Source: Buxus sempervirens (Eukaryota; Streptophyta; Magnoliopsida; Buxales; Buxaceae). From it: DNA of 64,000 bases. Location: NCBI GenBank assembly GCA_947561395.2, contig OX387182.1:4226001-4290000 (forward strand). The letters are read 5' to 3'. The position numbers and the translations under genes are program-made. The notes beneath the pieces are model-generated. The model did no database searches and was not told where the DNA came from. It saw only the letters and a program-made list of their open reading frames with translations. Positions 7,347 to 35,916 of this stretch are shown here, one piece after another (position 1 is the stretch's first letter; every line of letters begins with the position of its first letter).

Positions 7347-7450
7347 GCCCGTATTTCCTTCACGGGCCCATCGCGCCCGAAAATTATCTACGGACAGGCG
7401 CGCCCGTAGTAACAATACAGTCACCATTGGACCGTAAATCATTTACGGGC
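7347..7450. repeat. Palindrome series of different sequence in the outer LTR
   Basis: Three palindromes lie about 41-42 bp apart centre to centre: 7347-7367 (GCCCGT...ACGGGC), 7388-7409 (CTACGG...CCGTAG) and 7432-7448 (CCGTAAAT-C-ATTTACGG). They occupy the same relative place in the LTR as the GTATCCGG arrays of the related families, but the arm sequence is CCCGTA/TACGGG. Confidence 0.7.
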
Positions 7451-8110: not shown

Positions 8111-8252
8111 GTATCCGGATTGAGTATCCGGATACAAGTACCCTTTCCCGTATCCGGATACTCATACCGGATACATGTGAGCCTTAGCGTATCCGGTACC
8201 ATGTACCGGATACCTTAAGGCCTTTTTTTATCCGGTCTGACATACCGGATAC
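8111..8252. repeat. Array of four 25-bp palindromes, 39-bp pitch (5' LTR)
   Basis: Units start at 8111, 8150, 8189 and 8228, exactly 39 bp apart. Arms are GTATCCGG and CCGGATAC around a variable 7-to-9-base centre. The first unit is a near-direct repeat of GTATCCGGAT rather than a clean palindrome. The array lies about 155 bases upstream of the LTR TATA box, in the presumed U3 region. Confidence 0.92.
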
Positions 8253-8407
8253 CTTAAGTTTGCTCAAAATTAGGGTTTTCCGAGAGCTTTTCACTTTTAC
8301 CATCATGTCCCTCATTAAATGAGGGGAAATCGCGGAAATGACCTTAGGGTTAAGGTTGGAGGGGTTCTAGACATTAAGTTGTGTCTACCAATGACCTTAG
8401 CCTTTGC

Positions 8408-8418
8408 CTATAAATAGG
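8408..8418 (+). promoter_or_regulatory. 5' LTR TATA box
   Basis: CTATAAATAGG at 8408-8418. Transcription of the genomic RNA probably starts about 30 bases downstream. Confidence 0.75.
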
Positions 8419-10304
8419 AGCCTCCTCCTTGAGCAAAGGGCACACAACTCTTGTTTTGAATTCTCGCAAAGAAGAACTCCAAGAGAAGAAGAAAACCGCT
8501 GTGGAATCGCCTCCAGAACTCAGGTAAGCCTCAACTTTTCTTTTTATTTTCTGTCTTTACATTCCTAGATCTAGATCTCTTCTTCTACCTTTCTGTAGTG
8601 TAAAGCCTTGTTTTGTATGTGTGGAAATCCTTCCCCGGCTGAAAGTATCTCAAGACTCCCCTAGCCGTAAAACGTGAAGGCGGATCTAGGAGAAACGAGA
8701 CTGGGGATTGACCCTAGTGCTAGAACCCATGTAGCATAAGGCCTTTTTGATTGATTGTAAACCGTTCCATATTCAAAGTACCCTTGATTATCTTAAAGAG
8801 AACAGAGGGAAACGATAATGGAACGGAACCCTAGGCTATGCTAGAACCTATTTTGTTGAATCTATATGCATGTTGTATTGATCTTGCTTGGGTTTTCATT
8901 TTTGCACACATATTACACTTTTTTGGTGAATAGGCTCACATTTGGGGATTTATTACATTCATTGTGATAAATCTCCAATAAATGGCCTCAATCAAATTCT
9001 GGAGTGTTTTAAAATGTTTTTCAAAGGTTTTGGATTCATCTCACACGAATCACACACTTTTTGTCAATTTTCGGATTTGGTTTTCTTCAAAAGTGGCTTA
9101 GCTTGACAGCACCTGTACCCTTACTTCGGACGTCCATAACTTCATCATCCGGATGAATTTTGGGGTGATTCTAGAACCATGAGAAAGGTGAGGCTGTATA
9201 GTTTATGTCCACCAAATTGCACGAATTTCTATCTAGCCTATTTTTGACACTTCTCTGTCGAAGTTAAGTGGACAGTTCAGGTCCAAGTACAGAACTTGTC
9301 ACTTCGACGGACCGCCATGTGTTCGTTTTAAGTCCGATTCGAGTGGTTTTTATTTCTGAGTACTCCTTTTTGAGTCTATTTTCAAATCCAGTTGGTTTAA
9401 TAATTTTTGGATTCCATTTGAATTATTGGTAGCCGATTTACTCAGAACTATTCATTTGTACTTTTCTGGGTAAATCTGTGATCTTCGGGGCCTGTTCGGG
9501 AGACCACCCAAGGCACATCCGAAGGGATTTTTGTATGAGGCTAGTTTCTTTTGAAATATGGCCATACAGACTTCAATCACACCAAATTTCGTGGATTTTT
9601 ATGTTGTGGATGTTTCTAGACAATTTTCCAAAGTTGCCCACTTATCACTTTTAAAAATCCCCAGCAGCAACTTCAAAGGAGCATAACTCCTAGGATTTTT
9701 ATCGAAATGAAGTGAAATTTTGCATGAGACTCTTATTTACCCTAATCTTTCAAATGGATTTGGTTTGGTTCAATTTAGAATTGGATTTGAATGATTTTAA
9801 GGCAAATGGCATACCTTTTACCAAATTTTCCGGATTTGATTCAACTTGGTTTTTTAGCAACTTGTGCTTTGATTTCCATCTTTTAGGATATTCCAGAAAT
9901 GATATTGACATAAGAGAGGATCTAAAATCCATTTAGATCTTCATGTGGAGATATCATACATTTGACTTTTTTTCAAGGTTTCTCATGATTTTTAGCAAGC
10001 TTTCTTACTTTGTTTTTTTGCATGAACATACACTTGGCAACCACTTTGTGTGGATGAATGGGGGTGCCTAATACCTTCCCCCGTTCATAATCTAATCCCC
10101 TTACCCATCTCTGGATTTGATTTTCAAGTAGGGTTATTTTTACCCTAGAATGCTTCTTTTTTCACTTTTTGCTTATTTTGAATTCTTTGGTGTCCATTCT
10201 CACCCCAAAATCATGAATGGTGGCGACTCTCCCAATTTTTGCGTTGAGCCCGTGTGTTGACGGAGGGATGGTCACTCCGGTGATTTTTTCCCATGTCTCA
10301 CAAC

Positions 10305-10323
10305 TGGCGACTCTGCTGGGGAC
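10305..10323 (+). promoter_or_regulatory. Primer-binding site
   Basis: TGGCGACTCTGCTGGGGAC begins two bases after the 5' LTR. It starts with TGG, as expected for the complement of a tRNA CCA end. Tat/Ogre elements typically use a tRNA-Arg primer and this sequence resembles their sites, but I have not matched it to a specific tRNA. Confidence 0.75.
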
Positions 10324-11650
10324 TTGTGGATTTAAGCCTATTTGTGTATATTCATGCTTTTTATTCACTTTTGAATGCTTGCTATTTTGCTTATTTTGTG
10401 AATATTGTTGTATCTTAAATCTGAATGGGATTTTTAAAATTTTTCATGGATAAGGGCATGGTCATGTTGCTTGATTTGGTTTAAGGGAAAAACCCACATT
10501 GTTATATGACTTTTGCTATATTATGTGTTAGCATGGGTTTTGGGGTTAGAATGCCATGAAAAATATACAATGTTGGAAATCTGGAAATTTCAGGTTTGTC
10601 TTGGGTATTCAAGCATGTTTCCCATGAATAAAGTTTTTTTTGTGCTTAATGTGTGCTTTATGCCATGCTTGGGATTTTGGGGTATAAGGGATGCACTTCT
10701 GAGCATGAAAAATCTGGAAATTTTAATGTATTTTGGGGAGATCTCAAGCATATTTTACCTCATTGTAACACTTTTGAACCATGTCAAGTAGTGCTAAAAT
10801 TTTAGGCTCCAATTTGGGTAGAAATGGTACACTTTGAGCATGAAAAAGAGCATGAAATCTGGAATTTTAGGAATGCTTTTGGGATTTCAAGCATGCTTCC
10901 ATGGTTTAATTGTGGTTTGTACAAATAACATGTTTTGTATACCACTTTTTGGGCATGTAATATTTTTGTGCATATTCGGTGCTTGCTTGCTTGTATTTAG
11001 CTTCATTATCTTTGTCATTTGTACCTTGGCTTGAAATTGAATGCATGGCTACGGAAAAGAGTGGCAAGGGGCTGGGACGTTGTGAATGTTACCACAATTT
11101 AAAATTGCACTTGAGCACTTGAAACAATTTGCACAGCCTACCCTTTTACCTATTAGGAAGTTGAACCATGAATGTGTGTAGCTTGGCGCACCGAGGTCGT
11201 GACTTCGGAAAGCGAAAGTGAAAATATTTACCTTAGAATTTGGGTCAATGATGTGATGACAATGGGATCTGTGATTCGTTTCCGGGCATCACTAGACTTG
11301 AGTTCTAAGTTGCCAATTAAGCCAAAACCCAAAAACCATACTCTTGAAGGTGGAGAAACACGTTTTCAGCTAAAAGCACACAATTGCGTCTGGGGAATTG
11401 GGTGTAAATGTGGGAAGGCCGTTTGCATGTTTTACAGGCCAAGGTATAATGTGAATACCATATTGAATGAAGGTAATACAAGGTGGCAAGGTAAAGCCAT
11501 GTTCTTTTCCTAAATTTGGGGAATTTTGCAAGTATGATGTCCAAGCCCAATTTGGGGCAAGTTTTGAAGGTCCAATTAAGGTGAACATCAAGTGGGAATG
11601 AAAAAAAACTAATCGGGTGAAAAAATGAGTCAGAAAGGGCCATTTCGGCA

Positions 11651-11792
11651 ATAACCGGCAACTCAGGCCGGTTAATAACAACTCTGTTCATATCCGGTAT
11701 ATATTTCCTGATACAAAGGTATATGCGTGCATCCGGTTATGGTGACCGGATACAATAAGGCATATCCTTATCCGGTATGGTATACCGGATAC
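11651..11792. repeat. Array of four palindromes, 39-bp pitch (leader)
   Basis: Units start at 11651, 11690, 11729 and 11768, exactly 39 bp apart, with the same 25-bp design as the LTR arrays (last unit TTATCCGGT...ACCGGATAC). The first unit is more diverged but keeps the AACTCAG centre of the arrays at 1550 and 23138. No TATA box is obvious downstream of this array. Confidence 0.9.
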
Positions 11793-12086
11793 ATTCAAAA
11801 AATGCACAAATTGGCTTGTCAGCCCAAATTTTCAAAATAAAATACCTAAAACACTATGTATAACCCTTAGGCACCCCAAAGAAAATATTAAAATGTCAAA
11901 AAATAAATAAATAAAAAAAATAATAAAAAAAAATATTCTTGTAGGATTAAACCTAAGGTTGAATCTTAAAGAATGAAAGAATGAGCTAAGGTGTCATATT
12001 TTTTGACATTAATTCAATTCAAACATGTGTCAATCAAGCTTCAGAACTTGAAAATCTTCTAAAATGCATCAAATTTCAAAAAAATA

Positions 12087-12880
12087 AAACCCTTGATTGG
12101 TCTCCTTTTTACCAATCAAGTCAAAAAAAATTGGGACCCTTGGAAGCCCTAGAATATTCCATAAAAAACCCTTGATTGGTCTCCTTTTTACCAATCAAGT
12201 CAAAAAAAGTGGGACCTCTGGAAGCCCTAGAATATTCCATGAACCCTTGATTGGTCTCCTTTTTACCAATCAAATCAAATCAAAAATTGGGACCCTTGGA
12301 AGCCCTAGAATATTCCATAAAAAACCCTTGATTGGTCTCCTTTTTACCAATCAAGTCAAAAAAAGTGGGACCTCTGGAAGCCCTAGAATATTCCATGAAC
12401 TCTTGATTGGTCTCCTTTTTACCAATCAAATCAAATCAAAAATTGGGACCCTTGGAAGCCCTAGAATATTCCATAAAAAACCCTTGATTGGTCTCCTTTT
12501 TACCAATCAAGTCAAAAAAAAGTGGGACCTCTGGAAGCCCTAGAATATTCCATGAACCCTTGATTGGTCTCCTTTTTACCAATCAAATCAAATCAAAAAT
12601 TGGGACCCTTGGAAGCCCTAGAATATTCCATAAAAATAAAAAAAAACCCTTGATTGGTCTCCTTTTTACCAATTAAGTCAAAAAAAAGTAGGACCTCTGG
12701 AAGCCCTAGAATATTCCATGAACCCTTGATTGGTCTCCTTTTTACCAATCAAATCAAATCAAAAATGGGGACCCTTGGAAGCCCTAGAATATTCCATGAA
12801 AACCTTGGTTGGTTATTTTTATCAATCAAATAAAAAAAAATTTCTTTTGGGACCCTTGGAAGCCCTAGAATATTCCAACA
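12087..12880 (+). repeat. Leader minisatellite of about ten hairpin units
   Basis: About ten tandem units of 73-82 bp. Each begins with a perfect stem CTTGATTGGT ... ACCAATCAAG around CTCCTTTTT and ends GGAAGCCCTAGAATATTCCAT. Two subtypes alternate (TTGGGACCCTTGG and GTGGGACCTCTGG), giving a higher-order period of about 155 bp. The last unit is degenerate. Reading frames running through it are by-products of the repeat. Confidence 0.9.
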
Positions 12881-13067
12881 CAAAATCAAAACAAAAAAAA
12901 ACAAAAAAAAATTTTGGACTGGTGTTCACCTGACCTATCTGTCTACATTTATAGGGGTGTGTTTCAAATTAAATGGAAGCTGACTTGTGTCTTTGTTTTT
13001 CCTACATCAGGTACATTTACACTTATTTGCAATCATTGCTCCCGTGACTAGATCCAAAGCAAGAACA

Positions 13068-14801
13068 ATGAATACTGAAGAGAACCAAGCCCAAGCTACT
13101 GTCCCTGCTCAGGACTTTACTCAGCTGCAAGAGCAAGTGGCCGGTCTGGCCAAAATGCTGGGAGACTTACTGGCGGCTCAGGCCCAGCAGGCCCAAGCCC
13201 AGAACCAGGCATCTACTTCCCATCAGGCACCACCACCTCAGGCCTACATTCCGCCTCCGGCTCAGCCCATGCCTGAGCCCATTTCTGAACCAGTCCCTGA
13301 ACCCATTCTGATCAGGGAAAATACAGCGGAGTCGGAGAAAGAGCTGGAAAAAGAAAAGGCCCGAAATGAGATGGAAAAGAAAATGCTGCTCAGGATAGAG
13401 AGGATCCAGGCAGAGCTGAAGGAAGTGAAGGGGGGAGGCAGCCATGCAGGAACCACCTTCGAAGACCTGTGCATGTACCCGGACGTCTGTTTACCGGCTA
13501 AGTTCAGGTGCCCGGACTTCGATAAATTTGATGGCACGGGCTGCCCATTGAGCCATCTCAAATTATACTGCGGGGCCCTGTGCCAATTTGGCCGGGATGA
13601 TGGCATACTGATCCAGCTCTTCCAGAGGAGTCTGACCGGGTCAGCCCTTCGGTGGTTCGCTACAGTGGACCATGGAAGGATCAGGAGGTGGAAGGACCTA
13701 GCTGACGCTTTCTTGGACCAGTACAAGTTCAACTCGGAGATCGGGCCGGACCGGTATGACATGATGAGGATGACCAAGGGGAAAGATGAACCGGTACGGC
13801 AGTACGCCAAGAGATGGAGAGAGGCCGCCTCCCAGGTCAGGCCACCTATGCAAGAGCTGGAGATGATCTCCACATTTATGGGCACACTGGGGCAGCCTTT
13901 TTACAACCATCTGGTGGGTCAGATCACCACCAACTTTGCAGCCCTAGTGCAGGTGGCGGACCGGATCGAGGAAGGGGTCAGGTCAGGAAGGCTGATAGAC
14001 TACTCTACTCTGACTGGGCAGTCTGATTCCTCGGCCTCCATGGCCCAAAAGAAGGGAACTGGGTTCAAGAAGACAGGGGCCCGAAAAGAAGGAGAGGTGA
14101 ACCTGGTCCAGGCTCCTCTAGCCAAGAAGCCACTGCACATCAACATCTCTGTACCCCAGCAACCCCAGCAGGCTCAACAGGCCCAGCAGTCTTATCAGAG
14201 CCCGCAGAATGTCAATTTCACTCCCTCTGTACCAGCAAACCCAAGGAGGACCTTTACCAGGGAGGAAAGAGAGGCCTGGTTAGCCAACAGAAAGAACCGG
14301 GTTCTCACCCCTCTACCCATATCTCTTTCCCAACTATTGCCAACCCTGCTAAAGGATGAATACTTGACTCTGAAAGAGCCCAACCCGAATGCCACCAGGG
14401 GGAGAAATTTTGACACGTCGGTCACCTGTGATTTCCACATGGGTGTACCGGGGCATTCTACTGATAACTGCTGGGTATTGAAGCATGCAGTCCAGGATTT
14501 GTTGGACCAGAAGGCCTTGGTGTTCAACACTGCTGCACCGGCCCCGTCTGGGAATGATATTGGGCAGAACCCTCTGCCTTACCACAATGGGGCAGGCCCA
14601 TCTAACTCCATCACAGCCATATCCACCACGAGAAGGGCCTTTGACCCATCACAGCTCATAGCTCCCGTGGGGACCACGGTCCAGGTCCGATTCTTCCAAG
14701 AAGAGGAAGAGGAGGAGATAAACATGGTCTCCCAAAAAAATAATCTTGCTGCTGAGGACATAAGCTCCTCCTTAAACCGGGTCTCTTCTCTGATGGCCTA
14801 G
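13068..14801 (+). CDS. gag: Gag polyprotein (Tat-type)
   Basis: Structural protein of the retrotransposon particle. The start is placed at Met 13068 (MNTEENQAQA); the same frame is open upstream to 12987 and includes PVTRSKART, which often follows the first Met in this family, so an upstream start lost by mutation is possible. A Gln/Pro-rich N-terminus and a Glu/Lys-rich coiled segment come first. The Ty3-type gag core follows (about 13495-14010, with LYCGALCQFGRDD, LTGSALRWF, VRQYAKRWREAA, FMGTLGQPFYNHLVGQ), then a zinc-finger-like CDFHMGVPGHSTDNC (about 14430-14470). It ends at TAG 14799-14801, in the same frame as the protease region. The TAG lies in the context GCC-TAG and could come from CAG by C-to-T change, or be read through. 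Confidence 0.88.
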   Translation: MNTEENQAQATVPAQDFTQLQEQVAGLAKMLGDLLAAQAQQAQAQNQASTSHQAPPPQAYIPPPAQPMPEPISEPVPEPILIRENTAESEKELEKEKARNEMEKKMLLRIERIQAELKEVKGGGSHAGTTFEDLCMYPDVCLPAKFRCPDFDKFDGTGCPLSHLKLYCGALCQFGRDDGILIQLFQRSLTGSALRWFATVDHGRIRRWKDLADAFLDQYKFNSEIGPDRYDMMRMTKGKDEPVRQYAKRWREAASQVRPPMQELEMISTFMGTLGQPFYNHLVGQITTNFAALVQVADRIEEGVRSGRLIDYSTLTGQSDSSASMAQKKGTGFKKTGARKEGEVNLVQAPLAKKPLHINISVPQQPQQAQQAQQSYQSPQNVNFTPSVPANPRRTFTREEREAWLANRKNRVLTPLPISLSQLLPTLLKDEYLTLKEPNPNATRGRNFDTSVTCDFHMGVPGHSTDNCWVLKHAVQDLLDQKALVFNTAAPAPSGNDIGQNPLPYHNGAGPSNSITAISTTRRAFDPSQLIAPVGTTVQVRFFQEEEEEEINMVSQKNNLAAEDISSSLNRVSSLMA

Positions 14802-16781
14802 ATAAATACTGCAAGGCCCCCATTGGTCTTCAATTGCAGTCCACCCATTTTCTCACCATCCAAGCCGTCTAAGGCTCCACTGGTCATCAATCTTGACCCC
14901 ACCACTGATTCCATCACTTCTTCTGTCCCCACAAATTCCAAACTTCAACCCTTGGTTGTAAATGTGCAGCCAGCCCATGCTATCCCTAAACCGGCCCCTA
15001 CATCCCGGTCCAGACTCCAGCCATTAGTGGTAAACATCCCTAAATTAGCCTATTCAGAGGCCGCTGTACCATGGAACTACAGCGAGGGAATCACGGCTAC
15101 GGTTCCAATGGTCAAGGACCAGAACCAGGAGGAGGTGAACCTCATGACGAGGTCAGGGAGATGTGCAGGGGGTGAGGAGAAAGAAAAAGAGACAGAAGTA
15201 GAGAAAGAGAAAAAAGAGAATGAAGAAAAAAGAAAACAGAAGGGAAAAAATAAAGTGGGAGAAGACACCCCCCAGGGTGCAGAAAATGAGGCAGCCGACC
15301 TCATAAAAATAATAAAGAAAAGTGAATTTAATCTTGTGGATCAGCTGAACAAGGTCCCGGCCCAGATTTCAATACTGGGCCTTTTGCTGAATTCTGAAAA
15401 GCATAGGGATGCATTGTTAAGGGTGCTACAGAGTGCACACGTATCCCAGACTATTGATCCGGACCAGCTTGGTAAAATGGTTGGTCAAATCTTGTCACAT
15501 AATGTGATAAGTTTCTCAGAGGGTGAGATCAGCCCAGGTGGGTGTTATCATGTGGACCCTTTGCACATCACTGTGCTTTGTAAGGGCTGCATGGTTGCAC
15601 GGGTTTTAATTGACAACGGGTCAGCGTTAAACGTTTGCCCGTTAATCACTTTTACCAAGCTGGGTCTGGACCAGTCAAGGATCAAACAAAATGGGCGGAT
15701 AGTTAGGGCTTTTGATAGCTCCAAGACTCACTCCCTAGGGGAGATTGAACTGCCGGTCACAATTGGGCCGAATATCTTTAACATCACATTTGAGGTGATG
15801 GACATACCCGCAGCCTTCAATCTGCTCCTAGGGAGGCCGTGGATACATTCAGCTAGGGCAATACCATCCACGCTCCACCAAAGGGTGAAATACATAAGAG
15901 GGCAAAGGGTGATAACAGTCCTAGCCGAAAGCTTGGTGCCGCCCATTGTGTCACCTGATGTACCCTTGATCAATGTGGACCTAACTGTCGACAAGATTGC
16001 ATTCCACTCATTCCAATTTGAGGCGGTAAATTACATACCTGGGGGGTGTGAGAAAAAGAAGGAAAAGGGGACCACTGCAGAAAAGATGGTCAAGAAAGTG
16101 ATGGAGAAATACCACTTTCACCCAGGGAAAGGCCTGGGGATCAATCTGCAGGGGATGGTGGAGCCAATCACGGCTAAGAAACTGATCCCCAAGGTAGGGT
16201 TGGGCTTCAAGCCCAGAGGTTGGAGAAGAATGAAATATGAAGAAGGGGAGAGCAGAACCAAAGGGAAACTCCCTCATCTGAGGGTGAACTTTCCGAAACC
16301 CTCCTATATAATCCAAATTTCTCCTCCCATGGACCAGTCCAAGCCTCCATACCACAACCTTAACCCATTTCAAAAGCCTTTAGTTTCGGCCCTACAACCC
16401 TATAACCCATCTCCAATACTGGGAGCAACAGATGGGCCTGGGCCACAGTCCGAGCAGCAGGTGGACTTTTCTGAGGATGTTGGTGCATTCTTCGCCATGA
16501 TTGAGGGCGAAAAGACAGGTGCAGACATGGACCTGCCATTCATTGACTGGGCCGCAGTAAAGATTCCAGAGGAGGTTACTTCTGGACTGAGCCCCGTAGC
16601 AGAAAAGGGCAGTACCCACCCGGTGATGATGGCATCGGATGCTGGGCTTGAGGAGCGGGCTTTCCCTATTTCCCCTGCTCCCCAAAATTTTGTACTGAAC
16701 AATTGGGAGGAAACTCCCCTTACCTTTGAAGCAGCGTTAGTTCGGCAAACTGACGCGGCTTCCAAAAAAAAACTCCAATAG
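14802..16781 (+). CDS. Protease and G-patch region of Gag-Pro
   Basis: Same frame as gag, separated by a single TAG, and open to TAG 16779-16781. A Pro-rich linker and a highly charged Glu/Lys segment come first. The aspartic protease has its active-site motif LIDNGSALNVCP at about 15606-15641 and LLLGRPWIHS near 15820. A G-patch-like motif follows (GKGLGINLQG ... VGLGFKP, about 16120-16220), common in Tat elements. The protease would cut Gag-Pol. The frame ends just after a run of nine A (16764-16772), where the RT frame (-1) takes over. It has no start of its own, so expression depends on readthrough or on a stop-free parental copy. Confidence 0.85.
   Translation: MNTARPPLVFNCSPPIFSPSKPSKAPLVINLDPTTDSITSSVPTNSKLQPLVVNVQPAHAIPKPAPTSRSRLQPLVVNIPKLAYSEAAVPWNYSEGITATVPMVKDQNQEEVNLMTRSGRCAGGEEKEKETEVEKEKKENEEKRKQKGKNKVGEDTPQGAENEAADLIKIIKKSEFNLVDQLNKVPAQISILGLLLNSEKHRDALLRVLQSAHVSQTIDPDQLGKMVGQILSHNVISFSEGEISPGGCYHVDPLHITVLCKGCMVARVLIDNGSALNVCPLITFTKLGLDQSRIKQNGRIVRAFDSSKTHSLGEIELPVTIGPNIFNITFEVMDIPAAFNLLLGRPWIHSARAIPSTLHQRVKYIRGQRVITVLAESLVPPIVSPDVPLINVDLTVDKIAFHSFQFEAVNYIPGGCEKKKEKGTTAEKMVKKVMEKYHFHPGKGLGINLQGMVEPITAKKLIPKVGLGFKPRGWRRMKYEEGESRTKGKLPHLRVNFPKPSYIIQISPPMDQSKPPYHNLNPFQKPLVSALQPYNPSPILGATDGPGPQSEQQVDFSEDVGAFFAMIEGEKTGADMDLPFIDWAAVKIPEEVTSGLSPVAEKGSTHPVMMASDAGLEERAFPISPAPQNFVLNNWEETPLTFEAALVRQTDAASKKKLQ
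16764..16772 (+). promoter_or_regulatory. A9 run at the protease/RT frame change, candidate slippery site
   Basis: Nine consecutive A lie two codons before the protease-frame stop. The RT frame is -1 relative to it and is open across this point. A -1 slip on the A run would fuse protease to RT. Loss of one A from an in-frame ancestor explains the sequence equally well. Confidence 0.45.
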
Positions 16782-20367: not shown

Positions 20368-21296
20368 GTGAATATTTCTAGGAAAGGATCCGAGGCCATT
20401 TTTCTTTATTTCCTTCAAAATTCAAATCCCTAGTCTAGCCAAGTTGAGCCGGTTCGTTTCGTTGATAAACCCAAACCGGATTTACAGTCTTAAATTGGGG
20501 CAAAAACAAATTGGGGCAAAGTAAGGAAAGAAAAAGAAAAAGAGAGGAAAAGCAATGGAAATGGCAAATGAAAGCCAAGTGTGAAAAAAGATGCAAAAAA
20601 TGCAATTTGGGGAAAAAGGGTTAAATTCATCATGACTGTAAGTCTGGTTGACCTATTTCCATACTTGGAAAATTTTGGGCCTTTGATACCCTTTCTTTCA
20701 TAAACTGAGCCTAGCCTTTGTTTCGTCCAATTTTTAAGCCCTTGGTGATCTTAGCTTGTTCATTCAAATATCAGAGTAAGATGGGTGATGACGGAATGCA
20801 GGAGCCGGCCCTAGTGAAAACCGTAACTGGCGCTAGGGGCAATATTGGCAAAAAGGCAAAAAGAAAAAATAAGAAAAATGAAAGAAAATCAGAGATTGAG
20901 TTGATCATGGGGATCTGAGCCTTAAGAAAAGTTGGCATGAGCAGAATGGGGCAGTTTTGGCAGTTGGGGATGACTCTAAAAGTCCTAAGATGGACGGTTC
21001 TGATCCCTCAATATTTTCTGGACTACCCTTTTCATTATTTAACCTGGTTTTAATTCCTTTAATTATAGGCGATTAAGTGCATGGACCAAATTTCAAAAAA
21101 AAAATATAAAAAGGAAAAATTATACTTTGGCCAGTGATGATAAATCAAATACTTTTCATAAAACCTTTGTTTTTACAAGCATCTGAGCATTCTGAGGCCA
21201 ATAATATAAAAACTTTATTTTGAATTAAATCCTTTGTATTTCCACTATTGGAGTTCAATTTTGTACAAAGGTATGGAAAATGTGCAGGAAATAAAG
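20368..21296. other. Interval between pol and the antisense genes
   Basis: A 930-bp spacer between the convergent 3' ends of pol and antisense gene 2. It contains AAATTGGGGCAAA repeated near 20490-20520, as seen after integrase in related elements. Short reading frames here (such as 20718-20918) are Lys-rich and unsupported. Polyadenylation signals for both directions would be expected here; none was assigned. Confidence 0.5.
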
Positions 21297-23008
21297 CTAG
21301 TCTCCTAGCCGCTCCTCAAGCTCCCGAATCCGAGCTGCCTGAGCTGCAATGACTCCTGAAGCCCCCTCTGCAGCGGGATCACTCAGGAAGGAAATGACCT
21401 CATCTGAAAGGGCCTGCTTAATCCTCATACTCCTAAGGCTGGCCAAAGTAGCCTGGTACTTCTGCCGGATCATACGGACCTCAAAGCAACGAGCCTGCCT
21501 CTGCTCCTCCAGCTTCTCTTCCACGGCAATACGGCGTGAGACCTGCTCCTCAAGCTGCCTCTCCAGATAAGCGCCCTGTATCCTGAGCTCCTGGGCCTCC
21601 CGTACCCATATCTGCTGAAGCCGCTTATGAGAAGCCCGCTCAGACTCTAGAATGTCCTTATAGGTGGGAGCCAAGACTACTGGAGGATCTTCGGGTATTG
21701 GGGCCTGAGTCTGTATCTGCTCCTTGATCCAGAAGAGATAATCCTTCACATAGGCTTCTGAGAAGACTGGACCATGCATAAAGCGGACATAAGACCACTC
21801 CTTCATCAACCAGGCATTCAGCTTCATAGAAAGGGGCCCAAGACGATACTCATATCCACATGGGATGATAATCCCCTGGGTCGCACGGAACTGACGAAGG
21901 ACCCGCAGAGGAAGATACAGCATTGCATACTTCAGGCCCGCTAGGATCAGAAAGTTGCGGTCACGGAAGCTAATCACTGTCTCTGCATTAGGCTGATAAG
22001 TACCAGGCCATCTCACCTGGTCATCCTGAAGCGAGCCCAAGAAAGTGAACCAGCCCTGTTTGCCCCCTGGAATATCGGGGCACCCCCTGTTGCTCATCAA
22101 GAGAGGGACTTTTAGACTCGGGAAGAAGTGTCGATTGATCTCTTCAATCTGGCTCAAATGATCAAGGAGCCAAAGCTGCAAAGGAAGAGAGATGTATCAG
22201 CACATTGTATATAAAAAAAAAAGCAAAAAAAAGGCAAAAAGAAAGCCAAAAAAGTAAGAAAAATAAAAATAAAAGCAAGAAAAAAAAACTTTTTTTTTAC
22301 CTGCAGGATCTGGGCACATGCTAGGAAGCGTTTCGACTTCCTATTGTAGCAGTCGGTTAAGGCCTGATATATCCCAGCTAAAATCATAGGGGCCAACCTC
22401 TCCCGCTCCCTAACCTGGCATATCACAGAAATCAAGGCCAAGTCCACCTCGTCATCCTCCCGTGGGAAAAGCAACTGGTTGACCACTATCAGGGTCAACG
22501 CATTGAATCAGGCCTCCTTATCTTCTCCCCTCAAAAGCTTCTCAGTCAAAAAAGCCTTAGATAGGGTCAAAAGGGTGTTAGAATCCCCCAAGTCCTTCTT
22601 CCCTATGCCCAAAAAAGTAGAAGCTTCCTTCTTGTAACTGGGCCTAAGAGGTGGATTCACCACCTTCTCATCAAACCTCAGGCCCAGGATGGTTTCCACC
22701 TCTTCAATGGTTGGGGTCATCTCATGGTTCCCAAAACGGAACAAGTTGAGGTCAGGAACCCAATGACCAATTATGACCTCTATAATCTCCCACCTGAAGG
22801 GAACCTTGGGAATGAGCAGGGTATGGCCTAGATTAGTAGAACCCCATCTTCTCTCCTCATCTAGGGTCATAGAGTTAACCCACCTTGTGTAAAAGGAATC
22901 CACAGGGTTGTACCTAGTGAGATTTGGGGGTTTTGATCTAAAAGGCTGTTTTGCAGGGGAGGCAGTGTGGACAGACAATAATGGGGCAGAAGATGATCCG
23001 GATTCCAT
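21297..23008 (-). pseudogene. Antisense gene 2: DUF7745/PMD-like protein with coiled coil, one in-frame TGA
   Basis: Two exons on the strand opposite gag-pol: 23008-22301 and 22175-21297, with GT donor (22300-22299) and AG acceptor (22177-22176), joined in phase 0. Met 23008 starts MESGSSSAPLLS. The N-terminal domain (RWVNSMTLDEERRW, WVPDLNLFRFGNHEMTPTIEEV, ILGLRF) resembles the DUF7745/plant-mobile-domain-like proteins abundant in plant genomes. The C-terminal third is a long coiled coil (about residues 395-525, ending ARIRELEERLGD). The spliced frame is about 528 codons. TGA at 22510-22508 (codon 167) interrupts it; a CGA-to-TGA change fits. The biochemical function is unknown. Its promoter carries the palindrome array at 23138-23279. 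Confidence 0.8.
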
Positions 23009-23117
23009 TGGATGTGACGGGAGCAAGCTAGAACTCAAGAGGAGGAAGAAAAAGGCGAAAAAGGGGGTTTCTAAACTCAAAAACTCGTAAAAAATACTCA
23101 AATCCCGAGGCTGGTTG

Positions 23118-23127
23118 CATTTATAGC
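23118..23127 (-). promoter_or_regulatory. TATA box of antisense gene 2
   Basis: On the minus strand GCTATAAATG lies about 110 bases before the Met codon at 23008 and about 11 bases from the edge of the palindrome array. The spacing is right for a core promoter with a short 5' UTR. Confidence 0.6.
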
Positions 23128-23137
23128 ATCTTTTAAC

Positions 23138-23279
23138 GTATCCGGTAACTCAGACCGGATACAAAAGGCTTTATTAATATCCGGATAAATATACCGGATA
23201 CAAAGGATACCATGAGTATCCGGTATGACATACCGGATACAAAGACCAATCAATGTATCCGGTATGTCAGACCGGATAC
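23138..23279. repeat. Array of four 25-bp palindromes, 39-bp pitch (promoter of antisense gene 2)
   Basis: Units start at 23138, 23177, 23216 and 23255, exactly 39 bp apart. Arms GTATCCGGT and ACCGGATAC are nearly perfect. The array lies directly upstream of the minus-strand TATA box. The unit nearest the TATA box has the AACTCAG centre. Confidence 0.93.
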
Positions 23280-23492
23280 CGAGAAAAAATGCAAAAAAAA
23301 GAGCTAGGGATGAAAAAATCCGAATTTTTTACCTGTTTTACCTGCTTACATGTCATAATTGCATAAAATTGAGAACAAAAGATGTGCAAGACAAGATAGA
23401 ATGAATAAAAAGTTTTTTTCATATATATATTCAAGTTTTTGTACAAGGAATGATACGATCAATACATGAAAAGGAAAAATCCTAATCTACTG

Positions 23493-26174
23493 CTACTGTG
23501 CAGGATCATCCCTACGACCTCTCCCTCGAAGCGCTCTGCCCCTAGAGTAGGCAAGAATACGCTCGGCTGCATGACGAGGATGCCGACCCACCACCTGCTG
23601 AAGCTGATACTCCAGGCAATACTCCTCGATGTCTGGGGGTAGAGCAGGAGCAGAATCTGGGGAGGAAACCTCTGGCCCAGCAGGTACGGGCTCAACTGGA
23701 CCCTCAGCCATAGCAGGCTCTGCTCCCGCAGCTCCAGAAGGCCCGGCATCAGAAGAAGGGCCAGGATAAGAAATATCTGTACCAAATGGGAAGAAATCAA
23801 GAAGTGGGATACTGAAATGAATAAAAAAGAAGAAGCTAAGGAAAGCATACCAGCAGGCACTATGGGATCCGGATCCACTGGGTCGGCAGCAGGGACCTCC
23901 TCTTGCTCAGGAACCACCACTGGAGCATCACCAGGATCAGCAGCTGAATCCGTAGCCCGAGCAGGAGACAGGTCAGGAATGAGGAAATCAGGCTCGAAGG
24001 CAGCATCCTGATCTGGGACCGGGCCCTGCACAAGTCAAACAAGCTTATCAGAATAGCAGAAACAGGAAAATAATGAAAGAAATGAAAATATGAGAAGGCC
24101 AGATACCTGTCTAGACTGGAGCTCAGCAACTAAGGCCTCCAGCTCCCTGATCCGGGCATCCCGCTGGGCCACGACCGCATCGTGCTCCGCGATCATATCA
24201 TCGATCGCAGCCCGCTGGCTCTCGAACCGGTCCCGAATGGAGTTCAGCTCGTGTACCTGCCAACAAGAACGGAAGCGTGGTCAGAAATGCATAAGGAAGG
24301 AAAAGAGGATAAAAATGGGAAGAGTACAAGGCTTACCGTGTCCTCGTGGATCCGGATACGGATCCCGCCGATCTCTGTCACCCCGGCACGAGTAGGTCGA
24401 TCCATCAAGCATCCGATAGATACTCCCTGGAACCACTCGTCATAATCTCCGGCTACTGTGAGCCCCTCGGCATCCAGGAAATGATCGAACTGATCCACAT
24501 CGAAGCCAGGAAGGAGAGTATCGGGACTCACAGCAGGAGGAGGGACGGGGATGCGAAGTGCGCCAGTGTGCTGGAAGTACAGGCGCTCTCCCAAGTACAT
24601 CACCCTACCAAGCCTCCCAAGGAAGCACTGGTAAGGCTGACGTCGGAGATCTCTCTCAAAAGCATCCTGTACTGCCATCTCACGGGCAACTCCGACATCC
24701 ACGTCATCTAGACGGGATAGAATGAGCTGCAAAGAAGCAAAGTGGTCAGATACAGTCAAGATACAGGAAAAGAAATAGAAAGGAAAAAAGATAGAGGACT
24801 TACATCAGATCGGCGGGCACGGTCTAAGTGCACCCGGGCAGTGCGAGGCTGGCTCCTATCAGCATCTCGAACCTGGGCCGACCATCGCAAGGCCACAGGG
24901 AAATCCGCAACCTCAGGAACCGGAGAGGGGCGGAAGAAGGTCATATAGGTGTACATGAACACCTAAAAAAAGAAAAATCAGTTAAGAAAAGATAAGGCCT
25001 AAGGACTTAAACCAGACAGATAAATGCAATACCTGTAGAATCTGCCAGAAGAACCGGCTGCTGACTCCATCACCTCTCGGAGATGCTAAGCCTCGAACCG
25101 CTCGGCACAGCCCGGCCAAGATGGTCCCATAGATCAGCCGACCCCATGCTAGCTGGCGGGTCTGATGGAAATCTCTCAAGGCGTCCAAAAAGAGTGGACT
25201 GACACCAGTCGTATCCTCCGGGAAGAAGCAGCTCCCCAACATCAGCAGGAATACATGTCGGAAGATCGGCGCAAAGGCTGCATCCTCCACAGAGACGGTC
25301 TCGTGCCTCCTCTCAAAATGACGAGCCAGACTCTCCCGCAGCCAGCTAATGGAGAGCCGGCCACTCCTCCCATCCCAAGCAGTAGGTGGTAGGGCCTGAT
25401 ACCCCAGAAGGAGGCCAATATCCTCCGCAGAAGGCCGCTCCAAGATGATGGTCCGCCCCGTCAATGGAATACCGGTGATCATCACAAAATCGGAAGGGCG
25501 GATCCCTAGCTCCACGTCCGGCAAATGAAACGACTGCGTCTCCGGGAAATATCTCTCCATCATGGCAAAAATAAGCGGACGGTCGGCTCTGAATGATGGA
25601 ATACTGAGGAAGTGATCCAGGTGGCACCTCCCAAACTCCCACCTGAGTGCCGGGGAAAGCGACCGAGCTAACTCACTGAATCTCCCCCAGCTGCCTCGCA
25701 GATGAGAGGAATGATAAGGAAGCGGCACATCCGCCCTGATGCACATGGAAGGGTGGCTATCCAAGCCACGGAGGAGCTCTGTATCATGCACAGAGGCCCT
25801 CAACTCCTCAGGGACCCCTGCAAGGGCTACAGCAACCCCCTCCTGAGCCGTATCTCTGGCTCTGCCTCGGCCTCTACCACGGTCTCTCTCGCCCTCAGGG
25901 GCCTGATCCTGAACCTGGCCTCTGCCTCGGCCTCGACCACGAGCAGGTGCAACCACGGGCTGAATTGCAAAGGAACAGCGTGAGGATTTGTGTACAAGGG
26001 AGAATGAAGAGAGAAAGGAAAATTTTGAAAGCCTACCTCAGCAGAACTCTCTCTCGAGTCACCTAATGGCTCAGACAAAGTGGCACTGGAGCTCGCCTCT
26101 GTCCGAGCCCGCGAACTGGAGGGCTGATCAGCTGGGTCAACCTCCTCTCTAACCCGAGAACGACTCCTAGCCAT
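23493..26174 (-). CDS. Antisense gene 1: intact seven-coding-exon plant-mobile-domain protein
   Basis: Coding exons on the minus strand: 26174-26037, 25959-25033, 24962-24804, 24726-24337, 24256-24107, 24025-23851, 23776-23493. All introns have GT-AG ends, and the exons sum to 2223 nt (740 codons plus stop) with no interruption. Order: Ser/Arg-rich N-terminus; Arg-Gly repeats (residues about 53-82); plant-mobile-domain-like region (about 125-300, with RWEFGRCHLDHFL, MMERYFPETQSFHLPDVELGIRPSDF, ITGIPLTGRTI); coiled coil in exon 5 (ARIRELEALVAELQSRQ); acidic Pro-rich tail ending RGRGRRDDPAQ. Members of this domain family occur in transposons and in host silencing factors, but the biochemical role here is unknown. 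Antisense placement keeps its introns in the element's genomic RNA. It is the only gene of the element without a lesion. Confidence 0.85.
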
Positions 26175-27597
26175 CTACAACAGGGAAGTATCCTATGAAT
26201 TCCAGTACAAATTTATCTAAAATCCTACTTTGCTTTTAATTTGGATTTAGTTCAAATTTATCAAAAATTTCAACTCTAGTTCATCAGGAATCTTATGTTC
26301 AGGAATTGTGGTTCGGTTCAAAGTCTTTTAGAGAATATTTCTATATATTTTTTTTCACAAGGACTAATAACCGATAATTTACTACAGGATTGCTACAGTT
26401 GTGCAAAAGCAAATGGTCTAAATCAAGGATCTGAATAAAACTAAGGAGTACAAAAACCAACCACAGAATGGTCCGAGCAGTTAGAGCACAACATTAACAC
26501 CGGGCGGATTGAGAATCCCAGCATATCAAGAAGTAGCAGCAAGGTATGAGAATCAGAATTCAATCAGAAAAAGTACAACTTGGCACCAGCAGCATACCAT
26601 TTGAAAAGGAAAGAAAATCACGGGAAAAGACCACCAGTTGGTCAATTTTAAGGAAGTCGGAGCAAGTTTACGAGGTCCAAGCCCATTCAGCATACAATTA
26701 ACAGTTCAATGAACACCACCAACAGGCAGTCCTAAGTTTTGGACACTATCAAGTCAAGGATTGCACAAGCAACAGTCACATGGGCAGCTCAAAAAAAAAA
26801 GGCAATTGAAAGTCAAGACAAATTTTGAAAAAAAAATCACATATCATGAAGTCTGAAAATTCTATCAATAGCTATATGGGAAATGCAAAATCATGCCATT
26901 CAGTGGGAAAGGCAATCCCAATCAGTGCAAGTAAAAGTCATGGCATCACAAAAAATTTGAAGCATTGCAATCCAGCATGGTTTGTCCAAAACAACCAAGG
27001 CAATGGCAAGATTGGATTCATTAAAGCATCAATTCAGAAATTCAAACTCAAACTCGGCAGAAATTCAGAAATTCAGGCAATTGACAGAAATCCAGACTTG
27101 GCAGAAATTCAAAAATGCAGGCAATTGGGGAAATGGACAATTCTCCACAATTAAGAGAAATCCTAGCATGGCAAAATTGCTTGGATATGGCACTAAAACA
27201 CATGGCAAGGAAAAAATCACACATAGCATTAAAATTCGTCCAATGGGTTGCAAAGAAAAATTTAAATCTCACTAACCTGGACGAACAGTGGAGAAATCAA
27301 GTGCCTGGTTGCAAGTGAGAATCAAGGGACAAGTTCTCCGGAGCAGAACCTCCAATACCCAGTTGAGAAATCGAAAAAAGTCGAGGAAATCGAGCTAGGG
27401 CTCAACTGCGGCTGTCAAGGAGCAATCACGAAGTCGCCGGAGGTGCAGACTCTCGCCGGCAGCAACAGGAGCCACCGGAGCTCAGGGAATCGTCAGAGAA
27501 GAAGGGAGCAACCGTCGGGTGAAGAAGAAGAAGGAGATGGCCGGTCTGAGTAATCGGAGCAAGAAAAAAAGAAGAGGAAAAGTCGCGGTCGCGCGCG
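26175..27597 (-). promoter_or_regulatory. 5' UTR and probable leader intron of antisense gene 1
   Basis: An AG acceptor (26176-26175) immediately precedes the start codon. A good donor, CCAG|GTTAGTG, lies at 27276-27275. The predicted intron is about 1.1 kb. The first exon (about 27575-27277) has no ATG on the minus strand and is C/T-rich, as plant 5' UTRs often are. TATA at 27598-27606 fits a transcription start near 27570. The splicing is inferred from sequence signals only. Confidence 0.55.
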
Positions 27598-27606
27598 ACT
27601 TATAAA
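27598..27606 (-). promoter_or_regulatory. TATA box of antisense gene 1
   Basis: The minus strand reads TTTTATAAG, eight bases from the edge of the palindrome pair at 27614-27677. It is followed by an ATG-free leader and a donor-acceptor pair ending exactly at the start codon of the 740-codon gene. Confidence 0.55.
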
Positions 27607-27613
27607 ACATGGG

Positions 27614-27677
27614 GGATCCGGATACTCAGACCGGATACCCGCAGGCCCTCGATTATCCGGACACATCTACCGGATAC
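27614..27677. repeat. Pair of 25-bp palindromes, 39-bp pitch (promoter of antisense gene 1)
   Basis: Units start at 27614 and 27653, exactly 39 bp apart, with ATCCGG...CCGGATAC arms; the first has an ACTCAG centre. Only two units are present, and the purine-rich tract that follows may have replaced further units. Confidence 0.88.
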
Positions 27678-27678
27678 C

Positions 27679-27840
27679 AAAGAAAAAAGAAAAAAAATAG
27701 AAAAAACAGGAAAAAAAAACAAAAAAAATAGAGAAAAAACAGGGAAAAATAGAGAAAAAGAAGAAAAGAAAAAAAAAGAAAAAATATAGGAAAAAAAAAA
27801 GGAAAAAAGAAGAAAAGAAAGAAGAAGAAGAAAAAAGAGC
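27679..27840. repeat. A/G-rich low-complexity tract
   Basis: About 160 bases made almost only of A and G (AAAAAGAAAAAAAT-type runs), upstream of the promoter of antisense gene 1. The minus-strand reading frame through it (Phe/Ser/Leu-rich) is spurious. Confidence 0.8.
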
Positions 27841-27907
27841 AAATTTGTGCTACAATTCTTACTATTTTCCCAAAATCCTATTTTTGTCTTGAAATCCACC
27901 TCACAGC

Positions 27908-28389
27908 TAGAGCTGGCAACGGGTCGGGTTGGGTCGGGTTCGGGTCGGGTCGTAATCGGGTCAGGGTTAAACGGGTCGGGTTCGGGTTGACCCGTTTACT
28001 GGCGGGTTGGGAAAACCCCAAACCGAACCCAACCCGCCAATAAACGGGTTCAACCCGCCAACCCGATTATATATATTTTTTATTTTTTATTTTTTCAAAA
28101 ATATTATTAAAATGGGTTTTAGGGGTAATCGGGTCATAATCGGGTCGGGTTCGGGTCATAATCGGGTTGGCGGGTCATAATCGGGTTGATTCATGCAATT
28201 TTTTACACTTTTTTTTTAATCGGGTCATAATCGGGTTGGCGGGTCATAATCGGGTTTGACCCGATTTCAGGCGGGTTGGGAAAACCCCAACCCGCACCCG
28301 ACCCAATTAATAAACGGGTCAACCCAACCCGTTTATAATCGGGTTAAACGGGTTGACCCGTCGGGTCGGGTCGATTTTTGCCGGCTCTA
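27908..28389. mobile_element. 482-bp hAT-type MITE
   Basis: Terminal inverted repeats TAGAGCTGGCAA ... TTGCCGGCTCTA, flanked by a perfect 8-bp target duplication CTCACAGC (27900-27907 and 28390-28397), as is typical of hAT. The interior is built from CGGGTCGGGTT and AACCCGAACCC motifs in both orientations. It has no coding capacity. It inserted into the 3' region of the 23-kb element. Confidence 0.92.
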
Positions 28390-28397
28390 CTCACAGC

Positions 28398-28728
28398 CAC
28401 GAGAGCTCTGTGGAATTTGGGACAACTCTGGGAAATGTGCCTGGTCAAAAGGATGATATCCACTCAATTTTCAACTTGGTTTGATAAAAAATCATTTTTT
28501 CAAAAAAAATCCTATTTTTGGGCTTAAAATCCACTTCACAGCCACAAAGGGCTCAGTGGAATTTAAGAACTCTTGGAGAGATGCCCCCCTTAAAGTGAGG
28601 GCTTTTTGGCAAATCTCTACTCAAAAATGGTTTTCTACAGAAATTGAATTAAACCGAGCAAATCATGCTCAAGGTAATGCAATTTGGGCTTGTCTACTCT
28701 TTGCAGCTCACTGCTTCGCAGCTCCCGC
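28398..28728. repeat. Degenerate duplicated block before the polypurine tract
   Basis: The sequence AAAATCCTATTTTTG...AAATCCACCTCACAGCCACRA...CTCWGTGGAATTT, split by the MITE at 27908, recurs at about 28500-28565 with some divergence. This is an old local duplication just inside the 3' LTR. Confidence 0.6.
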
Positions 28729-28741
28729 AAAGAGGGGCAGT
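28729..28741 (+). promoter_or_regulatory. Polypurine tract
   Basis: AAAGAGGGGCAGT immediately precedes the 3' LTR at 28742. It primes plus-strand DNA synthesis in LTR retrotransposons. Confidence 0.75.
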
Positions 28742-31023
28742 TGTAGACACCCCAAATTGCACAAACAATCATCAAAAATCATTATCTCCTGGAAAGCCAG
28801 CACAGAATTTGAAGAAAATAAACTTTTACCTGTATCCGGATTGAGTATCCGGATACAAGTACCCTTTCCCGTATCCGGATACTCATACCGGATACATGTG
28901 AGCCTTAGCGTATCCGGTACCATGTACCGGATACCTTAAGGCCCTTTTTTATCCGGTCTGACATACCGGATACCTTAAGTTTGCTCAAAATTAGGGTTTT
29001 CCGAGAGCTTTTCACTTTTACCATCATGTCCCTCATTAAATGAGGGGAAATCGCGGAAATGACCTTAGGGTTAAGGTTGGAGGGGTTCTAGACATTAAGT
29101 TGTGTCTACCAATGACCTTAGCCTTTGCCTATAAATAGGAGCCTCCTCCTTGAGCAAAGGGCACACAACTCTTGTTTTGAATTCTCGCAAAGAAGAACTC
29201 CAAGAGAAGAAGAAAACCGCTGTGGAATCGCCTCCAGAACTCAGGTAAGCCTCAACTTTTCTTTTTATTTTCTGTCTTTACATTCCTAGATCTAGATCTC
29301 TTCTTCTACCTTTCTGTAGTGTAAAGCCTTGTTTTGTATGTGTGGAAATCCTTCCCCGGCTGAAAGTATCTCAAGACTCCCCTAGCCGTAAAACGTGAAG
29401 GCGGATCTAGGAGAAACGAGACTGGGGATTGACCCTAGTGCTAGAACCCATGTAGCATAAGGCCTTTTTGATTGATTGTAAACCGTTCCATATTCAAAGT
29501 ACCCTTGATTATCTTAAAGAGAACAGAGGGAAACGATAATGGAACGGAACCCTAGGCTATGCTAGAACCTATTTTGTTGAATCTATATGCATGTTGTATT
29601 GATCTTGCTTGGGTTTTCATTTTTGCACACATATTACACTTTTTTGGTGAATAGGCTCACATTTGGGGATTTATTACATTCATTGTGATAAATCTCCAAT
29701 AAATGGCCTCAATCAAATTCTGGAGTGTTTTAAAATGTTTTTCAAAGGTTTTGGATTCATCTCACACGAATCACACACTTTTTGTCAATTTTCGGATTTG
29801 GTTTTCTTCAAAAGTGGCTTAGCTTGACAGCACCTGTACCCTTACTTCGGACGTCCATAACTTCATCATCCGGATGAATTTTGGGGTGATTCCAGAACCA
29901 TGGGAAAGGTGAGGCTGTATAGTTTATGTCCACCAAATTGCATGAATTTCTATCTAGCCGATTTTTGACACTTCTCTGTCGAAGTTAAGTGGACAGTTCA
30001 GGTCCAAGTACAGAACTTGTCACTTCGACGGACCGCCATGTGTTCGTTTTAAGTCCGATTCGAGTGGTTTTTATTTCTGAGTACTCCTTTTTGAGTCTAT
30101 TTTCAAATCCAGTTGGTTTAATAATTTTTGGATTCCATTTGAATTATTGGTAGCCGATTTACTCAGAACTGTTCATTTGTACTTTTCTGGGTAAATCTGT
30201 GATCTTCGGGGCCTGTTCGGGAGACCACCCAAGGCACATCCGAAGGGATTTTTGTATGAGGCTAGTTTCTTTTGAAAGATGGCCATACAGACTTCAATCA
30301 CACCAAATTTCGTGGATTTTTATGTTGTGGATGTTTCTAGACAATTTTCCAAAGTTGCCCACTTATCACTTTTAAAAATCCCCAGCAGCAACTTCAAAGG
30401 AGCATAACTCCTAGGATTTTTATCGAAATGAAGTGAAATTTTGCATGAGACTCTTATTTACCCTAATCTTTCAAATGGATTTGGTTTGGTTCAATTTAGA
30501 ATTGGATTTGAATGATTTTAAGGCAAATGGCATACCTTTTACCAAATTTTCCGGATTTGATTCAACTTGGTTTTTTAGCAACTTGTGCTTTGATTTCCAT
30601 CTTTTGGGATATTCCAGAAATGATATTGACATAAGAGAGGATCTAAAATCCATTTAGATCTTCATGTGGAGATATCATACATTTGACTTTTTTTCAAGGT
30701 TTCTCATGATTTTTAGCAAGCTTTCTTACTTTGTTTTTTTGCATGAACATACACTTGGCAACCACTTTGTGTGGATGAATGGGGGTGCCTAATACCTTCC
30801 CCCGTTCATAATCTAATCCCCTTACCCATCTCTGGATTTGATTTTCAAGTAGGGTTATTTTTACCCTAGAATGCTTCTTTTTTCACTTTTTGCTTATTTT
30901 GAATTCTTTGGTGTCCATTCTCACCCCAAAATCATGAATGGTGGCGACTCTCCCAATTTTTGCGTTGAGCCCGTGTGTTGACGGAGGGATGATAACTCCG
31001 GTGATTTTTTCCCATGTCTCACA
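28742..31023 (+). repeat. 3' LTR of the 23-kb element
   Basis: 2282 bp, aligning without net gaps to the 5' LTR (offset 20721). Its palindrome units start at 28832, 28871, 28910 and 28949, and its TATA box is at 29129-29139. About ten substitutions were seen by eye (0.4 per cent). The target duplication GTACC follows at 31024. Confidence 0.95.
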
Positions 31024-35913: not shown

Positions 35914-35916
35914 CTA

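Follow-up and report, generated by a model that had tools for sequence, protein, structure and literature searches.

The 64,000-nucleotide stretch of Buxus sempervirens DNA analysed here (the window; contig OX387182.1, positions 4,226,001 to 4,290,000 of the forward strand) carries a retrotransposon of Ogre type, assigned here to family A, which is flanked by long terminal repeats (LTRs). Rows of 25-bp palindromes occupy four of its non-coding regions, i.e., the U3 part of the LTR, the leader, and the regions upstream of two antisense genes, aORF1 and aORF2 (ORF, open reading frame). The geometry of these arrays is kept while the letters between the palindrome arms are replaced. Between this family and a sister family, family B, the motif changes in concert at all four sites. 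Sequence comparison tips slightly towards the view that the arrays dock a regulator which binds as a dimer and is specific to the family, probably the Plant Mobile Domain (PMD)/coiled-coil protein encoded by the element.

Palindrome arrays in the window

All palindrome coordinates proposed by an earlier sequence-only reading were reproduced. A scan permitting up to three mismatches recovered 21 palindromes, compared with 0.05 expected in shuffled sequence, and the 22nd unit, at 11651, was present in register but more degenerate. The arrays and the TATA boxes near them are as follows; within each of these arrays every interval is exactly 39 bp.

8111..8252: U3 array, four palindromes at 39-bp pitch (starts 8111, 8150, 8189, and 8228), with the TATA box at 8409 following 156 bp downstream
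8409..8416, plus strand: TATA box of the LTR, TATAAATA
11651..11792: leader array, four palindromes at 39-bp pitch (starts 11651, 11690, 11729, and 11768), no TATA box found beside it
23119..23125, minus strand: TATA box of antisense gene 1, TATAAAT
23138..23279: array a1, four palindromes at 39-bp pitch (starts 23138, 23177, 23216, and 23255), 12 bp from the minus-strand TATA box of aORF1
27614..27677: array a2, two palindromes at 39-bp pitch (starts 27614 and 27653), upstream of aORF2
28832..28973: U3 array of the 3' LTR (starts 28832, 28871, 28910, and 28949)
1550..1691: U3 array of a solo LTR, four palindromes at 39-bp pitch (starts 1550, 1589, 1628, and 1667)

A TATA box clearly follows the array in U3 and at a1; at a2 this context is weak, and at the leader it is absent. 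Further copies were taken from the first 7.8 Mb of one contig, and of the 28 loci sampled, 27 were drawn from pairs listed as having an exact 14-bp spacer. All 28 family-A copies sit in arrays, nearly all of the element's three kinds, and none as single sites. The distance from array to TATA box was 155-167 bp in 20 of 21 LTR-classed arrays (window included), the exception being L187, which has a poor class score. In the seven a1-classed copies (window included), the distance to CTATAAAT was exactly 12 bp without exception. Three of four leader arrays have no TATA box within 260 bp, and one has ATATAAAA at 113. The same type of site is placed at the LTR and at the internal promoters of the candidate regulator (U3, a1, and a2 arrays).

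Locus L187 (C1:6264500-6265300) has an unclassified context. Its family-A palindromes, two and three, are split by a 79-bp GC-rich stretch, and a TATA box lies 12 bp past the last unit. The CCG and CGG letters, which are invariant in the arrays, are plant CG and CHG methylation sites. In the solo LTR array (1550-1691), C-to-T type changes have removed three of eight CCGG sites; two of these changes hit the CpG and the third the outer CHG cytosine. The young element differs in this respect.

Conserved geometry and turnover of letters

Eighteen window units were compared, with the two LTR copies of the 23-kb element counted once. Arm columns were near-invariant (12 to 18 of 18 units per column), whereas 11 of 14 spacer columns held less than 0.5 bits, with a maximum of 1.04 bits. 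Mean identity between units was high in the arms (0.91) and low in the centres (0.38) and spacers (0.32), and the values within and between arrays were nearly equal. When the solo LTR array was aligned with that of the 5' LTR, 60/64 arm, 14/36 centre, and 33/56 spacer positions were identical and no gap was found in the array, while the adjoining downstream LTR sequence was 86-90% identical.

Turnover was estimated from 19 LTR arrays (17 sampled and 2 of the window, giving 171 non-independent pairs), and 220 bp beside the array was used as flank. Centres showed 0.327 substitutions per site and 0 length changes; flanks showed 0.086 substitutions per site and 0.187 indels per substitution. The array centres evolve about four times faster than the adjoining LTR sequence, and at the flank indel rate about 377 centre length changes would be expected in these non-independent pairs, compared with 0 observed. 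Spacer length differences amounted to 18, all traced to a single array, L175. With 5-13 permitted, the centre length between 8-bp arms was 9 in 110 of 110 sampled units. Spacers of 14 bp made up 77 of 81 in the sample, a figure that is biased because 27 of the 28 loci came from the exact-spacer list; outside this selection, 38 of 40 spacers were 14 bp (two window arrays added, gaps above 20 excluded).

The sequence-only reading had taken arms kept beside spacers drifting at constant length as selection on geometry, and this claim is well supported. Neither of the outcomes that this reading had named as a refutation was seen, since spacing did not vary freely and the spacers were far less conserved than the arms. 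The 39-bp figure was only partly borne out as a constant. It holds inside each window array, but a pitch of 38 exists and the sister family uses 28/27 instead of 39, so the pitch is a family property. The values 39 and 27.7 bp correspond to 3.7 and 2.6 helical turns (10.5 bp per turn assumed). Because these are not whole turns, neighbouring dimers would not share one DNA face, and helical phasing was rejected as the reason for 39 bp.

The element's own leader repeats provided an internal control. Ten repeats of about 78 bp (12088-12877), most with the palindrome CTTGATTGGT-N9-ACCAATCAAG, mostly keep the palindrome letters, and their spacing varies from 75 to 90. They were rejected as part of the array system since their palindrome spacing drifts.

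Symmetric, i.e., compensatory, arm changes had been named as support and were present at position 9/17, in 49 of 74 distinct units compared with 31.9 expected (0 of 5000 shuffles). Position 8/18 showed a weak symmetry excess (86 of 5000 shuffles), and none was found at positions 10-12 or at the outermost position 1/25. In flipped orientation, six pairs of centres matched at 6 or 7 of 7 letters, which was reached in 10 of 2000 column shuffles. Such flipped centres, e.g., 8111 compared with 8150 and 23255 compared with 8228, look like inversions of the centre between the arms.

Genome-wide occurrence

In the host genome (676.5 Mb), 20,444 exact palindromes were found, and the reversed-pattern control gave 0. 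Genome-wide spacer and pitch counts are independent of the choice of loci. The spacer between neighbouring exact-arm units was 14 in 11,447 cases, 13 in 66, and 15 in 12. With a free gap of 0-30 between units, 13,009 pairs were found (control 2). Among the 50 forward matches listed from that scan, 34 had a gap of 14, 2 of 13, and 14 of 27, and the last are in-register repeats of the inner half-site. The viral contigs gave eight single-palindrome loci, whose flanks were read, and six N14 matches, with no array. Matches in the bacterial collection were chance-like; among those listed, none of 133 loci had a convincing adjoining half-site, and a weak one was seen at L052.

Sister family B and the shared core

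The 23-kb element was inserted into an LTR of family B, in which a second type of array was recognized.

7244-8020 and 31024-32049: older family-B LTR hit by the 23-kb insertion, duplication GAAGG
7347..7450: family-B array in this LTR, CCGT-N9-ACGG dyads at offsets 0, 28, 55, and 83

The family-B LTR sample comprised the best 30 of 4,034 first-look candidates (window copy included). In all 30 pieces, six to eight of the eight CCGT/ACGG half-sites stood at the exact offsets 0, 13, 28, 41, 55, 68, 83, and 96, and the family-A half-site was absent from all 30. In the single family-B element that was read inside, arrays stand at the same four sites as in family A (U3, leader, a1, and a2). There, the arrays upstream of antisense gene 1 and PMD gene 2 repeat these U3 offsets, a minus-strand TATA box adjoins the array of antisense gene 1, and the leader array has a pitch of 28. 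Across the family-B U3, a1, and a2 arrays, 39-42 of 48 half-site letters agree, compared with 17-23 of 55 other letters. Paired B dyads numbered 14,383 genome-wide, compared with 150 for the control. With pitches of 17-47 permitted, the 50 forward matches listed had a pitch of 28 (44) or 27 (6).

When the two families were aligned on the dyad, CCG-N11-CGG was common to both motifs. Family A is ATCCGG-N9-CCGGAT and family B is GCCCGTA-N7-TACGGGC with a pitch of 28/27; the flanking letters differ symmetrically. CCG-N11-CGG occurred 25 times in the window, and 22 of these occurrences fall inside A or B arrays; any other gap of 3-21 gave 1-12 occurrences. In a 5.6-kb family-B stretch, 8 of 9 occurrences lie inside arrays. 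Adjacent CCG-N11-CGG pairs numbered 62,264 genome-wide (reversed control 3,770) and adjacent N10 pairs 377 (reversed control 7,567); reversed-pattern controls are rough for such short GC-rich patterns, because the N10 control exceeds its count. The pitch among 73 forward matches listed was 39 (34), 38 (4), 28 (27), 27 (5), or other (3). The spacing inside the dyad is therefore common to both families, and what sets them apart is the flanking letters and the pitch.

At C1:17161252, a family-A-like palindrome pair has both centres one base shorter (N10), a possible variant geometry. Two family-A elements (window 8021, and L176 at C1:3409248) were inserted in family-B LTRs in the same orientation, which may indicate targeting. 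One of the two insertions lies 64 bp from the B array.

The carrier element and its antisense genes

The following features were assigned to the carrier element and the related solo LTR.

8021..31023, plus strand: full-length family-A Ogre-type LTR retrotransposon, ~23 kb, from LTR comparison with the ends read
8016-8020 and 31024-31028: its target-site duplication, GTACC
12987..14801, plus strand: gag ORF (Retrotrans_gag, E 3.6e-11)
14823..16781, plus strand: ORF with a G-patch domain (E 4.3e-6)
17563..20367, plus strand: part of pol, i.e., reverse transcriptase (RT), RNase H, second RNase H (RVT_3), and integrase
21297..23008, minus strand: antisense gene 1 (aORF1), two exons, DUF7745/PMD-like, with a long C-terminal helix
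23496..26174, minus strand: antisense gene 2 (aORF2), with several exons by inspection and a match to Plant Mobile Domain PF10536 (E 1e-13)
975..3941, plus strand: solo LTR, from a related subfamily of family A, with the duplication CCCAT

The two LTRs of the 23-kb element (8021-10302 and 28742-31023) are 2,282 bp each and align gap-free with 99.56% identity and 10 mismatches. They start with TG, end with CA, and are bordered by a 5-bp target duplication, as expected for Ogre/Tat elements. The RVT_3 domain was found at residues 363-481 between RT_RNaseH and integrase, where Ogre/Tat elements have their second RNase H, and the PF10536 match represents the extra PMD ORF frequent in Ogre. Judged from the domain order and this ORF, the element has the layout of the Ogre lineage. 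In this lineage (Ty3/gypsy Tat), PMD was reported in 57% of elements (PMC6317226). TRP28 (Transposase_28), the mark of Retand, gave no match up to E 0.1 among the nine proteins scanned.

The 5' intron of aORF2 probably lies at about 27276-26175. The long C-terminal helix of aORF1 was predicted with confidence in its middle part. No PDB relative of the aORF2 PMD was found up to E 1, and no relatives of pol and PMD were found in the viral contigs searched. Between families A and B, identity was 52% and 43% for aORF2 and 73% and 77% for aORF1, i.e., aORF2 is more diverged than aORF1. PMD gene pairs about 3.4 kb apart also occur at many genome sites, e.g., C8:6756466 and 6759891, and perhaps belong to another transposon type. 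The upstream stretches L203 and L204 of such paired genes were without palindrome arrays.

Three other parts of the window are recorded. A minus-strand CTATAAAT box at 12953, just before gag, points toward the 78-bp repeats and has no adjoining array. CGGGT-rich repeats in both orientations lie between array a2 and the 3' LTR (27918-28390). Three consecutive repeats of ~5 kb (32932-49795) are 96.5-98% identical, with a further copy interrupted by the nested LTR at 7244; they are hAT-like on the appearance of one ORF alone.

Proposed function and alternative explanations

In the favoured reading, each 25-bp palindrome would dock a protein dimer that reads CCG-N11-CGG together with family-specific flanking bases. 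A protein dimer on DNA is suggested by the dyad symmetry, the symmetric changes mainly at 9/17, and the constant half-site distance, and one trans-acting reader per family is suggested because the motif differs in concert at four distant sites. The rows of four sites (two in a2) at fixed pitch would mark four control regions, i.e., the leader and three promoters, that of the sense LTR and one for each antisense gene. The reader is probably encoded by the element itself. Because each antisense gene directly follows an array of its own and aORF2 is less conserved between the families than aORF1, aORF2 is the favoured candidate, and aORF1 would be its partner. The PMD domains of both proteins, the long helix predicted for aORF1, and the link of the host PMD proteins MAIN/MAIL1 to a promoter motif (PMC7156037, PMC9899485) also count in favour of these candidates. 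Binding would keep the element promoters active, or would keep DNA methylation away from them, both in cis and in trans, and the regulator would feed back on its own antisense genes. Activation with feedback as by Tas of foamy virus and removal of silencing as by VANC would both fit the arrays, which in the 23-kb element are also rich in CpG (values below). It may be speculated that the fast turnover of letters between the arms would fit evasion of small RNAs. A fuller proposal is put forward tentatively, as a possibility somewhat below an even chance. It is a private, family-specific circuit of plant Ogre-type retrotransposons in which antisense PMD/coiled-coil proteins would bind the rigid CCG-N11-CGG arrays of their own element and would protect or activate sense and antisense promoters together. 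As families diverge, specificity and pitch would change jointly in the protein and its sites.

Several points weigh against this assignment. The promoter context is weak at a2, where the only TATA-like sequence is TTATAA, and the leader array of the window element has no adjoining TATA box. The window copy has a single in-frame stop in aORF1 and a pol reading frame broken between ORFs 16781-17710 and 17563-20367. The coiled coil of aORF2 was judged by eye only, and single-sequence structure prediction of its PMD was uninformative (mean pLDDT 39). To our knowledge, DNA-binding activity of PMD is unproven. Three upstream stretches (1.2-1.5 kb) of other-type PMD genes in the host genome had no arrays, so PMD alone does not imply arrays. 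The interior of family B is known from one element only, and family A was sampled over the 7.8 Mb given above. The solo LTR array is not CpG-rich (observed/expected 0.81). Whether MAIN/MAIL1 contact chromatin is left open in PMC9899485, as far as its available text goes.

The chief rival, which also counts against an element-encoded reader, is that a host transcription-factor dimer, or paralogous factors, bind the arrays and the elements exploit them as strong enhancers. This is doubtful but has to be taken seriously. The U3 and a1 arrays lie upstream of TATA boxes as ordinary enhancers might, the other-type PMD genes lack arrays, and one core spacing in both motifs is what paralogous host factors might show, the families having adopted sites of different paralogues. 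Yet the motifs of the sister families differ in concert at four separate sites per element, and the 28 sampled family-A copies stand in arrays, nearly all of the element's three kinds, and not as single sites. We know of no plant factor with an inverted CCG-N11-CGG site, which also speaks against a host reader. Much less probable is that the palindromes act as RNA hairpins in transcripts (packaging, stability, or small-RNA evasion) and not as DNA. Folding is conceivable for 9-bp inverted repeats around 7-nt centres, the leader and 3' LTR arrays would be part of genomic RNA, and 5 of 17 unpaired arm cells would be G-U pairs in minus-strand RNA. However, only 1 of the 17 is a G-U pair in plus-strand RNA, antisense transcription presumably starts downstream of the a1 and a2 arrays, and a fixed 14-bp distance between hairpins is not needed.

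Still less can be said for neutral tandem duplication with 39 bp as the copied unit. Some traces of copying are present, i.e., AACTCAG or TACTCAG is the centre of the first unit in the solo, leader, a1, and a2 arrays, and TGATAT/TGACAT is common to solo unit 4, LTR unit 4, and a1 unit 3. Against this, spacer identity is near random although length is kept, array length change per substitution is far below that of the flank, the neighbouring 78-bp tandem array drifts in spacing, and the offsets in the sister family are just as rigid at a different pitch. The least probable explanation is evasion of silencing only, in which fast-changing spacers would avoid small RNAs and the arms would recruit a factor that demethylates DNA or excludes nucleosomes, with no activation of promoters. 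CpG observed/expected was 1.16-1.31 in the element's four arrays compared with 0.51 in the whole element, four units span 142 bp, which is near nucleosome size, and the arrays lie in non-coding regions like VANC targets (PMC5735166, PMC10398659). These CpG values reach only the 96th-99th percentile of the element's 142-bp windows, and the solo LTR array has the lower value given above. The data do not separate evasion from docking of a family-specific regulator.

Comparison with known systems and significance

Element-encoded regulators with repeated sites are already known in DNA transposons and animal retroviruses. No earlier report of arrays like these was found in the open-access literature, subscription papers being largely outside the coverage. 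The Ogre lineage shares RNase H with a second RNase H before integrase and the extra PMD ORF, whereas palindrome arrays or matched promoter motifs are not described in the available text of PMC6317226. Retand elements with antisense TRP28 ORFs likewise have antisense genes and tandem repeats between pol and the 3' LTR, and DNA binding and a regulatory role were suggested for these ORFs by the author (PMC11963269). However, their protein domain is another one, their repeats vary in copy number and sequence, and no binding sites or promoter arrays are proposed in the available part of that paper. What antisense ORFs do in plant LTR retrotransposons is described as unknown in the accessible text of PMC7264820 and PMC11963269.

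As in VANDAL/VANC, a short motif is repeated in non-coding regions and differs between related families; the regulator is element-encoded there, and here likewise only as a candidate (PMC5735166, PMC10398659). The carrier here is a gag-pol retrotransposon and not a MULE-type VANA/VANC DNA transposon. VANDAL repeats contract and expand with the motif YAGTATTAY, and no rigid palindrome pitch is reported in the available text of the same papers. Foamy virus Tas binds the LTR and the internal promoter driving Tas (PMC4929722), and the arrays here place one type of site at both kinds of promoter. Tas differs as a sense-strand gene of an animal virus with other sites and another protein. MAIN/MAIL1 are host PMD proteins required for genes sharing a promoter motif; the DOWN motif of one such promoter, CATGCAGTTT, is unlike the array palindromes, and direct binding is unproven according to the accessible text (PMC7156037, PMC9899485).

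The arrays offer concrete candidate targets for the antisense proteins, in tens of thousands of copies in one genome. The two natural motif classes, A and B, provide a built-in comparison of specificity between protein and array. There is a fair chance that the arrays reveal a new class of DNA-binding regulator, which PMD would be if the private circuit is true. Sequence-specific self-regulation would then be known not only for VANDAL DNA transposons but also for giant LTR elements, and PMD, which host silencing proteins contain as well, would gain a first biochemical function.

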